NCBI GenBank assembly: GCA_028825335.1
Contig: JAPKAI010000006.1
Coordinates: 1-54,300 of the forward strand
Direction of reading: 5' to 3'
Length of the DNA: 54,300 bases
Source: Gammaproteobacteria bacterium
GTDB taxonomy: Bacteria > Pseudomonadota > Gammaproteobacteria > Pseudomonadales > Pseudohongiellaceae
Shown: positions 21,429-26,439 of the stretch, in pieces
Layout: the number at the start of each line of letters is the position of its first letter
How positions within the stretch are numbered: the first letter of the stretch is position 1
Notes under the pieces: generated by a model
The model's input: the letters and a program-made list of their open reading frames with translations, nothing else
Database searches by the model: none
What the model was told of the DNA's origin: nothing
Position numbers and translations under genes: made by a program

Positions 21429-23678
21429 CTAGGGCAGCCAGGCATAACTAAACTTAGCGAATACTGTGCGGTTAGTTTTCTCGATGGCGTCGTAAGTGTC
21501 GTTCTGAAAGCCGGCATCGGAGTAGCCGATAAAGAATCGGGTGGCGGCGCTGAATCTATAGCTGTAGAGAAGCTGTGTGGTGAGTTGCTTAGTGCGCGCC
21601 TGCACTGACCTGACGTAGAGATCCTGATTACGTTTGTTGTCCGTATGCTGGAGCGTGAAGCGAAGAAAGCTGCGCGCACTAAATTGGTAAGTCGCCTTTA
21701 AGTCGGTCAGGTCCGCAGTAAATAGCCTCCCGCCGTCTACATCGAATTGCTGCAGAGTATGATCGAGGTCCAACTCCAAATGCTTACCCCAGCGATAATT
21801 GACGCTAGGCCCAAAGCGCTTCGATCTGCCGAGGCGAGTATTGGCAAAGTCGACAATATCCTCAACTCGAATAAGGGCGCTCAGGCGCAAGTTCGCTCTG
21901 GGGGTAAACCCAACTCTAAGCTGATTGAATTGTTCATCGAAATATTTGCCGTTCCAGTAGGTCTCGCTACCTCCGAATAGCCCACTGAGAAATGACTGCT
22001 TAGGGCCGTTCATGTTGAGGAATACTTCAAATTCTTCCTCGAGCTGCAGGCCTGACTGGTCTTCGGTTCGGTCATAGTCTAGTGCGACGCGGATTCGATT
22101 GAAGAAGTCGTCCGATTCGCCGCGCCAGGTGTGCCCAACAGTCGCCACGACGAACTTGAAATCGACTCGGTTCACGAAACCGAGATCGGCGCGGAAGTCA
22201 TCGCCCATGTCGGTATAGCCTAAACGCCAATCCCAACTTCGATCGGTGTGGCGATACTCCAGGCGTTGGCTACTGTCGCTTAGGCTGCTTGCCTGGCCGT
22301 ATCGGCCCTGTATGAGGGTTGGATATTCAGAGCTGGAGTGCATGGATTGAATAGAGATCGAATCTTGGTCGGTGGGCCTGAGCACTGCATCGACACTGCT
22401 GACGGTATTGTTGTAGCCGTCAGCCCGGCGGTCGGTAATCAGTGCACCGATCGTGGAATTCTCGAAAATATCGAAGCGATAGCGGCCAATCGCAACTTTG
22501 GATTCAACCTCGCCGAGCGAGGCAACGCTGGAGCCTAGGCTACGAGGTATCAAGAAGGTCGTGTTTACATCGTTGGCAGTGAGCAGAGCATAAGTGTGAT
22601 CTCCACTCTTGCCCGTGAGTTTTAGGCCATAGTCCGGATCGGAAATGTTTCTCGTGTGCACGAGCCGCTCAAAGGTATCGAAGTAGTCTGCGCCGTCTAA
22701 GAAGAAAGTTCGTCGTTCGGGGAAGAACAGGCTAAAAGTGTTGTTGATATCTAACTGCGCGCTATCGGCCTCGACTTGAGAGAAGTCGGGATTCAGAGTC
22801 GCATTGAGATACAGATCTTGAGAAATTCCCCAGCGCACATCGAGGCTGCCTTCTGGGTCGATACTCTCGCTATCCCAACCACCCATGGCTGGGTTTCTGT
22901 TCTCTACCGCAGTGGAGGTAAGAGTCGGAATAACCTCGAGATTTCTACTTCGAGTGAGATTGGCAAAACCGTCTGCTTTGCTAATCTGACAGATATAACA
23001 AGATATGTTTCTATCTTGTGGATTGTTGGCGATTCGCGTACCTCGATCACGCGGATAGAATCTGACTAGATCGACGCCCCAAGTCTGGTTGTTCTCGCTA
23101 GGCGTAAAGCGTAACTGCTTCATCGGAATAGCCATCTCTACGACATAGCCATCCTCGTTAATCTGTCCAGCGCTGTCCCATATGGCATTCCAAGATCGGT
23201 CTTCATCGTTGTTTACATCGTCTTGAATGGAATCAGCCTGCACACCATAGGGATTGGCAAAAAATTTGAATGCGCGCCTTTCATCGTTGAAGGTGTCCAG
23301 AACGATCGCCACCCAGTCATCGTTCCACATAGAGTCCCTGTCTCTATAGAAGGCGCGGATTTGATCGGGCTCCGGATCTAGTGCGATAAAGGCGACGTAC
23401 AGCACCTCGCCATCTTCCATGAGCAGGGCCTGCGCCTCCACCTTGGCGGGGACATTGTCATTCGGATTGGTTTCTATATTGACCCGAATGCGCGTGGCCT
23501 GACTCCACTCCCCCTGATCTATCTGACCATCGATTCGCGGCTCGGTATCCACTCTGGGGATGTTGTAATTACTCAGGGACTGGGCATAAAGCTCGGACGA
23601 GGGGAATCCCATGATAACGAGAGCGAGGAGAACAAGACTCGTGCTGAGCTTAACGCTGGGGTATGAGGATAGTTCCAT
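21429..23678 (-). CDS. DUF5916 outer-membrane protein with N-terminal CBM9-like domain
   Basis: A 749-aa exported protein. A signal peptide (LVLLALVIMGFPSSELYA) occupies about residues 14-31. Residues 40-235 form a CBM9-like beta-sandwich (RIDGQIDQGEWSQATRI, DDWVAIVLDTFNDERRAF, YVVEMAIPMKQLRF). The rest is DUF5916, rich in alternating beta strands and ending in aromatic residues (FAKFSYAWLP), as expected for a barrel in the outer membrane. The segment FFPERRTFFLDGADYF near residue 320 is a family hallmark. Function is unknown; a carbohydrate-linked uptake or surface role is often suggested. It stands alone, 138 bp upstream of gcvT on the same strand. Confidence 0.82.
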   Translation of the reverse strand: MELSSYPSVKLSTSLVLLALVIMGFPSSELYAQSLSNYNIPRVDTEPRIDGQIDQGEWSQATRIRVNIETNPNDNVPAKVEAQALLMEDGEVLYVAFIALDPEPDQIRAFYRDRDSMWNDDWVAIVLDTFNDERRAFKFFANPYGVQADSIQDDVNNDEDRSWNAIWDSAGQINEDGYVVEMAIPMKQLRFTPSENNQTWGVDLVRFYPRDRGTRIANNPQDRNISCYICQISKADGFANLTRSRNLEVIPTLTSTAVENRNPAMGGWDSESIDPEGSLDVRWGISQDLYLNATLNPDFSQVEADSAQLDINNTFSLFFPERRTFFLDGADYFDTFERLVHTRNISDPDYGLKLTGKSGDHTYALLTANDVNTTFLIPRSLGSSVASLGEVESKVAIGRYRFDIFENSTIGALITDRRADGYNNTVSSVDAVLRPTDQDSISIQSMHSSSEYPTLIQGRYGQASSLSDSSQRLEYRHTDRSWDWRLGYTDMGDDFRADLGFVNRVDFKFVVATVGHTWRGESDDFFNRIRVALDYDRTEDQSGLQLEEEFEVFLNMNGPKQSFLSGLFGGSETYWNGKYFDEQFNQLRVGFTPRANLRLSALIRVEDIVDFANTRLGRSKRFGPSVNYRWGKHLELDLDHTLQQFDVDGGRLFTADLTDLKATYQFSARSFLRFTLQHTDNKRNQDLYVRSVQARTKQLTTQLLYSYRFSAATRFFIGYSDAGFQNDTYDAIEKTNRTVFAKFSYAWLP

Positions 23679-23928: not shown

Positions 23929-24516
23929 TTAAAGTTCGGAAATGGCCTCAAGTACGTCTTCGAAGGGAGGTCGGTCTTGATATCTCTCTTCTGCAAACTT
24001 GGCCTTAATAGCTCCGTTTGTATCGATCAGGAATATTCCGGGATACGGTATTCCGTAGAACCGGTGATCTGGTTCGTAGTCCAAATTGCGAATACCGAAG
24101 GCATTCACGTGGGTAACTTCTTCATCGTGAAGAAGAGGGAACTGAATGTCCTGATCTTCCTGCACTATCTTCAGTGTCTCCACTGAATCGAACGTTATGG
24201 CAACAACATTGATGCCCATTGCTTCTATCTGATCACTGATTTCGGTCAGCTGCACGAGCTGAGCTTTACAGAACGGTCACCAGTCGAAGGAGCGGCTCAT
24301 CATTAAGAGCATGCCCTTTTTGCCTTTTAAGCTGTCAAATGATTGAACATTGCCATCCTGATTTTGTGCTGAGATTTCCGGAACCGATGCGCCTACTGGA
24401 AAGCCTGGAGCCCAGACGAAATCCTGTGCGATCGAAACCTGAAAACTCCCAAGCAACATCAGGGTAAGCAAGAATCTGCTTAGCACGCAGACGTGGGGTT
24501 GGGTTTTCTGATTCAT
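23929..24516 (-). CDS. Secreted peroxiredoxin-like protein, candidate selenoprotein (UxxC)
   Basis: Read from ATG 24516 to 23929, this is one 195-residue frame with TGA at 24279-24277, codon 80. The order is: signal peptide (FLLTLMLLGSFQVSIAQ, about residues 15-31), the redoxin beginning VGASVPEISAQNQDGNVQSF, then MSRSFDW-TGA-PFCKAQL, then an intact AhpC/TSA domain (GINVVAITFDSVETLKIVQ, YGIPYPGIFLID). Relatives have Cys at the TGA position, giving a CxxC active site, so the codon would encode selenocysteine (U80-P-F-C83). Apart from the TGA the frame is undamaged. GAGG precedes the start. Treating it as two genes makes no sense, because the second part would lack the active-site Cys. A plain nonsense mutation remains the alternative. 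Confidence 0.75.
24246..24262 (-). promoter_or_regulatory. SECIS-like hairpin downstream of in-frame TGA
   Basis: On the minus strand, TCAGCT pairs with AGCTGA (6 perfect base pairs) around the loop CGTGC. The loop starts 21 nt after the TGA and has G at its second position. Bacterial SECIS elements are small hairpins with the loop about 16-37 nt after UGA and a conserved G among the first two loop bases, so distance, size and loop all fit. Not verified by a folding program. Confidence 0.55.
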
Positions 24517-24734
24517 GACTACCTCACGAGTTTTAATAAAAATTTCTGCCCTAGCCTCGCCTTTTAAACGGGTTAAACCATTACTAACAATACCGGATTC
24601 ATGTCGTTTTTATTGCAAGATAACTAAATTACTTCTAATTCGATGCGTTGCTTCAATGCGGTGCGCCATATATTGGGCATAGAAGCACAATAGCGCTGCA
24701 TATTCAGCGGCACAGGGTTAATTTGGATTCATGT

Positions 24735-25436
24735 CTAATTTTGATCGAGGCCTGCGAGGAATCTCTCGCCGCGCGGTAGATAGTTATTGTCACTATCGAG
24801 AGAGAAAACCACAGAGTTTGAGCGGCCGATGATTTCTTCTCTGGGCACGAAGCTGTAGACACGACTGTCTGCACTGTTATCGCGATTGTCTCCCAACACG
24901 AAGTATTGGCCTTCAGGCACCACGGCAGGTCCGTAGCTGCGAGCGGTTCGGCTGACGAAGCGGTTGGACAAGCGCGCCTGATGGGTTTTCCCCGGGAGCT
25001 GCTCTAGAATGATAATGGAATCGTCATCTCTGGAGAGAACCTCGTAATGGGCGGCCTCGCCATTGATAACAAGGGCGTTGTTCTGCATGTAGATCGTGTC
25101 GCCAGGCACGCCGACAATGCGCTTAACAAGGCGTTTATCAGCTTTCTTAGAGTCGATTATGACTACATCGCCGCCACTAGGATCGGAGAGCTGGCCTAGG
25201 GATATCTCGGTGAAGGGTATCTTTATGTCGTAGGCGAGCTTGTTCACCCAGACCTTGTCGCCATCGAGTAGCGTAGGCTGCATAGAGGCACCGGAGATTG
25301 AGCTCAGGTCGGCGATTGCGCTCTTGAAAAAGACGATGCAGGTCAGCAATAGGAAAAATTGTCTATTTTCCTTCCAAAACAGATTGAGGTTGCTGCCGAG
25401 ACGCCCGGTAATAATGGCTTTATTTAGATCATTCAT
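24735..25436 (-). CDS. lepB: Signal peptidase I (S26 family), stand-alone paralogue
   Basis: A 233-aa membrane serine protease that removes signal peptides on the periplasmic side of the inner membrane. One membrane segment (FFLLLTCIVFFKSAIADL, about 27-44) precedes the catalytic Ser51 in SGASMQPTLLDGD. The general-base Lys105 lies in RLVKRIVGVPGD, and box E reads GDNRDNSADSR. It is shorter than E. coli LepB (324 aa) and lacks the usual lepA/rnc/era neighbours, so it may be a second signal peptidase rather than the housekeeping one. It is single and same-strand with the peroxiredoxin-like gene, about 220 bp upstream of it. Confidence 0.88.
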   Translation of the reverse strand: MNDLNKAIITGRLGSNLNLFWKENRQFFLLLTCIVFFKSAIADLSSISGASMQPTLLDGDKVWVNKLAYDIKIPFTEISLGQLSDPSGGDVVIIDSKKADKRLVKRIVGVPGDTIYMQNNALVINGEAAHYEVLSRDDDSIIILEQLPGKTHQARLSNRFVSRTARSYGPAVVPEGQYFVLGDNRDNSADSRVYSFVPREEIIGRSNSVVFSLDSDNNYLPRGERFLAGLDQN

Positions 25437-25658: not shown

Positions 25659-26439
25659 ATGGCATTGACGCAATTTCATCCAGCTTCCCGCGATTGGTTT
25701 ACTGCTCAGTTTGGTGAGCCTACGCAGGCCCAGGCCTGAGCTTGCGACCAAAGCTGGCCGTCACACGCTTATATCAGCCCCTACAGGCAGCGGTAAGGAC
25801 CTCGCTGCGTTCTATGCGGCATTCGATGATTTGGTGGTCAGAGGACTGAAGCGTCAGCTTAATCCCGGGGTGCAGATTCTCTATGTCTCTCTGCTGATAG
25901 CTTTACCCGCTGACGTGCACTGCTAATCCCGAATAAGAAGGAGCCAAGTGCGCATAAAAGGCGAGTCCGTCGGGCCATGTTCGGCGTTGAGGACGCGGGT
26001 AGGTGGAGCCTGTTGGAGAGAGTTGTTTTCGCCGCCGGGGCGCGTTTTGCTAACGGCACTGCGTAAAATGGAGCTACGTGGCACTATTCGTGGCGGCCGT
26101 TTTGTAGCGGGTGTTGGCGGTGAGCAATTTGCCTACCCTTAAACGGTGGATGTTCTTCGAAAATTTAAGAAACAAGTCGATTCGAACAAGCCTAGATACT
26201 GCAGTCTCTCAGCGGTAGATCCACTAAACCTGCTAAATCTAATTCTTCCTAACCGTAAACTCTCGAGACTGAGTAAGAACCGAGTGCTTTACGAGAATGG
26301 TATTCCTATAGCAGTATTGGAGTATGGCAAAGTAAACTTTCTGAAAGAAACTGAGGCAGCCCAAGAATAGAACTTGCAGCAGGCATTGATCAAGAAGAAT
26401 TTTCCAGCAAGGCTGCGAAGTTATCTCGGCACTCACTAG
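25659..26439 (+). pseudogene. lhr: Relic of large ATP-dependent helicase Lhr
   Basis: Two ends of an Lhr-type DEAD/DEAH helicase (about 1400 aa when intact) lie within 780 bp. From ATG 25659: FHPASRDWFTAQFGEPTQAQ, then TGA and a +1 shift, then TLISAPTGSGKDLAAFYAAF with a damaged Walker A (Asp after GK). The match ends near 25920. Directly after comes the C-terminal end: DAGRWSLLE, a shift, [20 protein letters not shown], a TAA at 26140, LSAVDPLNLLNLILPNRKLS, NRVLYENGIPIAVLE, a TAG at 26368, and a tail ending at 26439. Roughly 3.5 kb of the middle is missing. The open frame at 26146-26370 is therefore not an independent gene. Confidence 0.85.

Follow-up and report, generated by a model that had tools for sequence, protein, structure and literature searches.

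A minus-strand frame of 195 codons plus TAA (24516-23929) lies in the window, that is, in the whole stretch of 54,300 nucleotides analysed here. Its sole internal stop is the TGA of codon 80 (24279-24277), in the context SFDW-*-PFCKAQL. Does this TGA encode selenocysteine (Sec), or is it a lesion? The first-pass annotation had joined both pieces through the TGA to give the motif SFDW-U-PFCK, and the joined frame was confirmed: it is open on both sides of the codon, with ATG and 79 amino acids before it and 115 codons after it. The redoxin domain, which had been called intact, exceeded the PF00578 cut-off of 26 bits (Table 1). Taking together the evidence given below, we conclude that the TGA is almost certainly a Sec codon and not a lesion, and we hold with high confidence that the gene is a working selenoprotein gene, in which Sec is decoded in a redox protein. 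A gene caller that takes TGA as a stop would return a stub and a fragment for it. That is, where TGA is read as a stop only, a redox enzyme that is kept genus-wide is easily lost from annotation.

Table 1. Features of the selenoprotein locus and its neighbours, in positions of the window.
Feature	Position	Strand	Basis
Selenoprotein gene, UxxC redoxin of the AhpC/TSA family	23929..24516	minus	PF00578 86.7 bits, relatives, AlphaFold2 model
Sec codon UGA, codon 80	24277..24279	minus	related loci (n=95): TGA 71, TGC/TGT 24
Cys83 codon, presumed resolving partner of Sec80 (UxxC)	24268..24270	minus	invariant in 46-row alignment
SECIS hairpin, 6-bp stem, loop CGUGC (24252-24256)	24246..24262	minus	conservation and paired changes
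Putative signal peptide, residues 1-30	24427..24516	minus	by eye: hydrophobic stretch, SIA|Q
GAGG, possible ribosome binding site	24522..24525	minus	5 bases before ATG
Neighbour: signal peptidase S26 family protein	24735..25436	minus	PF10502 138.3 bits
Neighbour: CBM9/DUF5916 protein	21429..23678	minus	adjoins the gene in 16 of 21 loci

We searched the 195 contigs of the genome from which the window stems (G000) with profiles for Sec genes and tRNA-Sec. All four components that the first-pass annotation had proposed to look for are present, on contigs other than that of the window: selA (567.9 bits, cut-off 267.9), selB (379.1 bits, cut-off 242.25), selD (284.3 bits, cut-off 125, inside a 757-aa protein) and a tRNA-Sec whose anticodon is TCA (68.9 bits against a gathering score of 47). 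At L138:839-3112 (G000:C191), SelD carries a pyridine-nucleotide oxidoreductase domain as an N-terminal fusion, the Ndh-SelD type; PMC2398784 describes such fusions from marine metagenomes.

Relatives of the gene were sought in 194 genomes (own genome included), 104 of which match at E 1e-15 or better. The codon count rests on the 95 loci whose match spans codon 80. As had been expected of homologues, 24 of them carry Cys at this position (18 TGC, 6 TGT), while the other 71 carry TGA; TAA, TAG or a second stop within the match, the lesions to be checked for in relatives, occur in none of the 95. Together with the Sec machinery of the genome, this choice between TGA and Cys codons backs the selenoprotein reading. 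Within the genus of the window, TGA is found in 65/65 genes spanning codon 80. These come from 84 genomes (own included), among which two further ones hold a partial gene that misses the codon, eight hold only a longer paralogue and nine gave no match. Other genera of the family contributed TGA in two genomes (G088 and G096) and a Cys codon in 24, and other families of the order TGA in three (G121, G193 and G157, the latter with two copies). Over the loci L017-L068 (n=52) we read 46 TGA, five Cys codons and one ACA, the last in a 25%-identical outlier; L017-L037 apparently overlap in origin with the 194-genome set and were therefore kept out of the counts. In 16 of 21 loci, the genes for the S26 signal peptidase and the CBM9/DUF5916 protein both adjoin the selenoprotein gene, and these are the 16 TGA loci.

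The protein after the TGA is in frame and conserved when compared with nine close relatives. Over its 115 codons, L021 differs from the window by 27 synonymous and nine replacement changes and L017 by 13 and 12, the ratio being uneven among the nine. At E 1e-15 the branch is nearly confined to one family of the order, and 369 genomes sampled from the class yielded only the own genome and one weak match that lacks an internal stop; this UxxC branch is therefore narrow. No relative was found in the viral contigs scanned.

Downstream of the UGA, the gene contains a hairpin whose loop, CGUGC, follows 20 nt after the codon and whose stem pairs CAGCU with AGCUG plus a sixth pair below. Of 66 TGA genes (the 65 of the genus and that of G088), 62 share an identical 15-nt core and four deviate from it. 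The five hairpin codons (Q, L, V, Q, L) have an identity of 0.95-1.00 in these 66 genes, whereas the mean of 24 degenerate but conserved columns nearby is 0.57 (codon profile of 74 codons around the UGA, assumed to be a gap-free stretch). Among the Cys genes (n=24), hairpin residues three and four vary, and the preceding Q and L use their commonest codon in 0.67 and 0.43 of the rows. That is, a SECIS within the coding sequence freezes amino acids and codons in the Sec forms and not in the Cys forms. Stem cells are paired in 390/396 cases in the 66 TGA genes, with one of the six pairs lost in six genes, in 27/30 in five further TGA genes and in 97/144 in the Cys genes. Several stems have changed on both sides: CAGUU/AACUG in L105-L107 and CAAUU/AAUUG in L108, which are more distant TGA genes, and CAACU/AGUUG in L094 within the genus. 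A paralogue on contig 9 carries CAACU-CGUGG-AGUUG.

The bSECIS constraints given in PMC13188914 fit all 66 TGA genes at spacing 20 and four of the five others. The general SECIS model is non-specific, as it also fits 17 of the 24 Cys genes, eight of them at the same spacing. Folding energy (-8.8 kcal/mol over 48 nt for the window hairpin) gave no support when compared with shuffles, with z -0.10 for the window hairpin and -0.50 for that of the contig-9 paralogue. Synonymous recodings of the window gene retained all six pairs in 3.7% of cases and gave a stem of 6 bp, in whichever register, in 16.6%. Taken singly, the window hairpin is unremarkable and proves nothing; folding energy adds nothing to the case for a SECIS, which is made by its conservation and by the paired changes.

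How do other explanations of the TGA fare? Lone genomes can carry a TGA through nonsense mutation or sequencing error, and a true pseudogene, of an Lhr helicase, lies nearby in the window, so one might see a decaying redoxin gene here as well. But the same TGA occurs in 65 of 65 same-genus loci, none of which has a further stop, the frame beyond it is conserved, the hairpin codons are frozen, and the genome holds the Sec machinery. The probability of a lesion is thus practically nil, and the pseudogene reading is refuted in practice because the TGA is common to the same-genus loci; the first-pass annotation had rightly held a random nonsense mutation to be improbable. A contrast with a decaying gene of the window also stood: the Lhr helicase remnants (about 25711-26139) are split into short frames, unlike the Sec gene. 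On the plus strand, these remnants (25711-26139) form separate short frames that match PF00270 with 25.5 bits (cut-off 26) and PF23234 with 41.4 bits. Were UGA reassigned here (to Trp, say) or suppressed by another tRNA, this would agree with the rarity of TGA as a stop in the window, where it ends two of the 38 ORFs with at least 150 aa. We give this next to no credence: TGA is the stop of normal long genes, among them selB (657 aa) and a GTPase-type frame of 852 aa, and no extended open frame follows it; homologues have Cys and not Trp at position 80; and only four of 16 AhpC-TSA matches hold a TGA, each in a U-type active site. Since UGA still stops ordinary genes, selB included, the codon is recoded and the code unchanged.

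The open frames before and after the TGA could also stand for two small proteins, one a stub of 79 aa and the other of 108 aa, started at the internal GTG 24255. This GTG sits in the hairpin loop, however, and by eye no Shine-Dalgarno-like run precedes it; the split would cut the fold at the active site, and the Cys homologues are single proteins. Two separate products are hence very improbable, and we retain the single 195-codon selenoprotein. As to stop usage in general, TGA may be avoided in the window, where the 38 non-overlapping ORFs with a length of at least 150 aa end in TAG (20), TAA (16) and TGA (2). At other loci of the genome, 12 of 41 stops are TGA, at least one of which is a Sec codon.

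Across genomes, the codon form goes along with the Sec machinery. Of the 70 genomes with a TGA gene, 65 contain selA, versus nine of the 24 with a Cys gene (Fisher p 1e-7, relatedness ignored); outside the genus, the figures are 5/5 TGA versus 9/24 Cys genomes (p 0.017). All five TGA genomes that lack selA (G005, G017, G040, G055 and G057) contain a tRNA-Sec above the cut-off, so that incomplete assembly is the likely reason for the missing gene. G088, with TGA and selA, gave no tRNA-Sec above the cut-off. As nine Cys-form genomes have selA, the machinery does not force the use of Sec. With 71 loci in the Sec and 24 in the Cys form, the set amounts to a natural experiment on the mutual replacement of both residues. 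In two genomes of the genus, selA matches are broken: one is in pieces with stops (G070:C12:56526-57849) and one is in pieces (G050:C4:8176-9548), G050 having in addition a long, nearly complete copy on contig C11.

One case deserves separate treatment. Within genus g3, TGA occurs only in G096, as do selA and an over-cut-off tRNA-Sec, whereas the others examined (G085, G092, G101 and G106) have a Cys codon and neither selA nor such a tRNA. For a quick tree we masked the Sec position and used 63 of the 95 loci, omitting loci with N and the odd-numbered loci of the same-genus block except L039. On this 63-row tree, the Sec/Cys label changes three times, compared with a mean of 19.4 after shuffling (0 of 500 as low). 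The G096 gene (L119, G096:C13:45211-45968) is nested among the Cys rows of its genus, with SH-aLRT 97 for the group and 94 for its pair with L112. It lacks the common hairpin core and has a candidate hairpin of its own, with a 7-bp stem, a CGU loop and a spacing of 35, while the minimum-energy fold favours another pairing. The simplest reading of these sequences is an apparent independent change from Cys to Sec with a new SECIS; alternatively, the TGA form of G096 may have come by transfer, or the tree may be wrong. G096 may display a Cys-to-Sec switch soon after the event. A table in PMC1794560 lists three Cys-to-Sec events for the 'Prx-like thiol:disulfide oxidoreductase'.

What could the protein do? 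AlphaFold2, run on the 46-row alignment, gave a model with a pLDDT of 90.5, in which U80 directly precedes the active-site helix 81-99. The best Foldseek matches were Bcp4, a ResA-type protein, BcpB and AhpE (E 3e-11 to 1e-9), and U80 and C83 are the only redox residues of the predicted mature protein. We infer biochemical function, export, reductase partner and type of substrate of the UxxC redoxin along the following lines. SelD, SelA and tRNA-Sec would provide Sec-tRNA, which SelB, bound to the hairpin, would deliver at the UGA. The 195-aa precursor would then leave the cytoplasm and be processed into a thioredoxin-fold protein of the periplasm. Its selenolate U80 could attack an oxidised substrate, which may be a peroxide or else an exported protein with a disulfide or a sulfenic acid. 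C83 would close a U80-C83 selenylsulfide, and a DsbD-type membrane reductase would restore the pair. The presence of DsbD_N proteins above the cut-off elsewhere in the genome (contigs C62 and C114) suggests that a DsbD-type reductase serves its Sec redoxins.

A peroxide substrate is possible because of the Prx-like fold, and the selenoprotein might act as a peroxidase instead of a thiol-disulfide reductase. The PF00578 fold, the place of Bcp4, BcpB and AhpE among the best structural matches and a thiol peroxidase model as second NCBIfam match (53.9 bits versus a cut-off of 140) speak for this. But ResA is a top fold match as well, the motif W-U-P-F-C-K aligns with the WCxxCK of the thioredoxin family protein 2yp6, and the published Sec peroxiredoxins in PMC2398784 have TxxU. 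We consider a peroxidase a serious but lesser possibility and keep thiol-disulfide reduction as our preferred reading.

Which known selenoproteins does the gene resemble? In its motif UPFC, the protein lacks both the UxxU of SelL, which is the motif of that family, and the UGC of the long WAxxUGC proteins (NF041054, 30.2 bits versus a cut-off of 300), although the SelL/SelL-related model (NF040769) is its best NCBIfam match with 59.2 bits (cut-off 120). With the ResA/DsbE thiol-disulfide oxidoreductases it shares the fold and a WCxxCK-like motif, but it has Sec for the first Cys and scores below both models (ResA 40 bits versus 170, dsbE 25.9 versus 123.15). The Sec peroxiredoxins, of which the genome has its own TxxU representative on contig C195, share the AhpC/TSA fold; the window motif FDWUPFC has no T at the TxxU position. 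The closest kind are the UxxC Prx-like selenoproteins. They were described in 2005 for the Sargasso Sea (22 Prx-like sequences, 21 with UxxC, PMC1088965), the GOS survey of 2008 counted 225 sequences of Prx-like 1 and 68 of Prx-like 3 (PMC2398784), and reviews of 2022 and 2026 list the 'Prx-like thiol:disulfide oxidoreductase' (PF00578, UxxC/UxxU) as predicted (PMC9312934, PMC13188914). The window gene agrees with them in PF00578, the position of Sec in UxxC, Cys homologues, a bacterial SECIS and the occurrence in aquatic bacteria, and differs in the near-confinement of its branch to one family of the order and in the putative signal peptide. It belongs to this published kind, as placed by domain and motif and not by comparison with the published sequences (representative WP_010940744.1). 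Two points refine the first-pass annotation: the motif is a UxxC, unlike the TxxU of the Sec peroxiredoxins in the literature, and publications on this kind go back to 2005 (PMC1088965). Among the papers searched, none combined selenoproteins with OM182 or selenocysteine with Pseudohongiella. The result is genuine and has good support, but the kind itself is not new; what is newer is that the codon is conserved throughout the genus, that another genus apparently made a Cys-to-Sec switch separately, and that a Sec paralogue has a weak DsbD_N-like domain.

This paralogue is one of the four PF00578 proteins of the genome, among 16, that carry one TGA, all in U-type active-site contexts; the others are the window gene, the C195 protein (FTGG-U-TMQC, TxxU type) and a protein on C125 (WASW-U-GC) that is like the WAxxUGC proteins. 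Tentatively, we propose that the periplasmic UxxC branch, specific to this lineage, would form a selenium redox arm in the cell envelope, in which the weak DsbD_N-like domain of the paralogue might be a built-in reductant, the Sec or Cys form tracks the machinery, and G096 made its own switch with a new SECIS drawn from coding sequence. The paralogue itself (L134:1825-3015, G000:C9) is a second UxxC Sec protein, with a 396-aa frame and the motif ADW-U-PYC. Its C-terminal stretch, with CDDAICYLP, resembles DsbD_N at 18.8 bits (below the cut-off of 25), so that, judged by sequence, it may be a Sec redoxin fused to its own reductant. At least 53 relatives of this type exist, and among the matches listed each has exactly one TGA.
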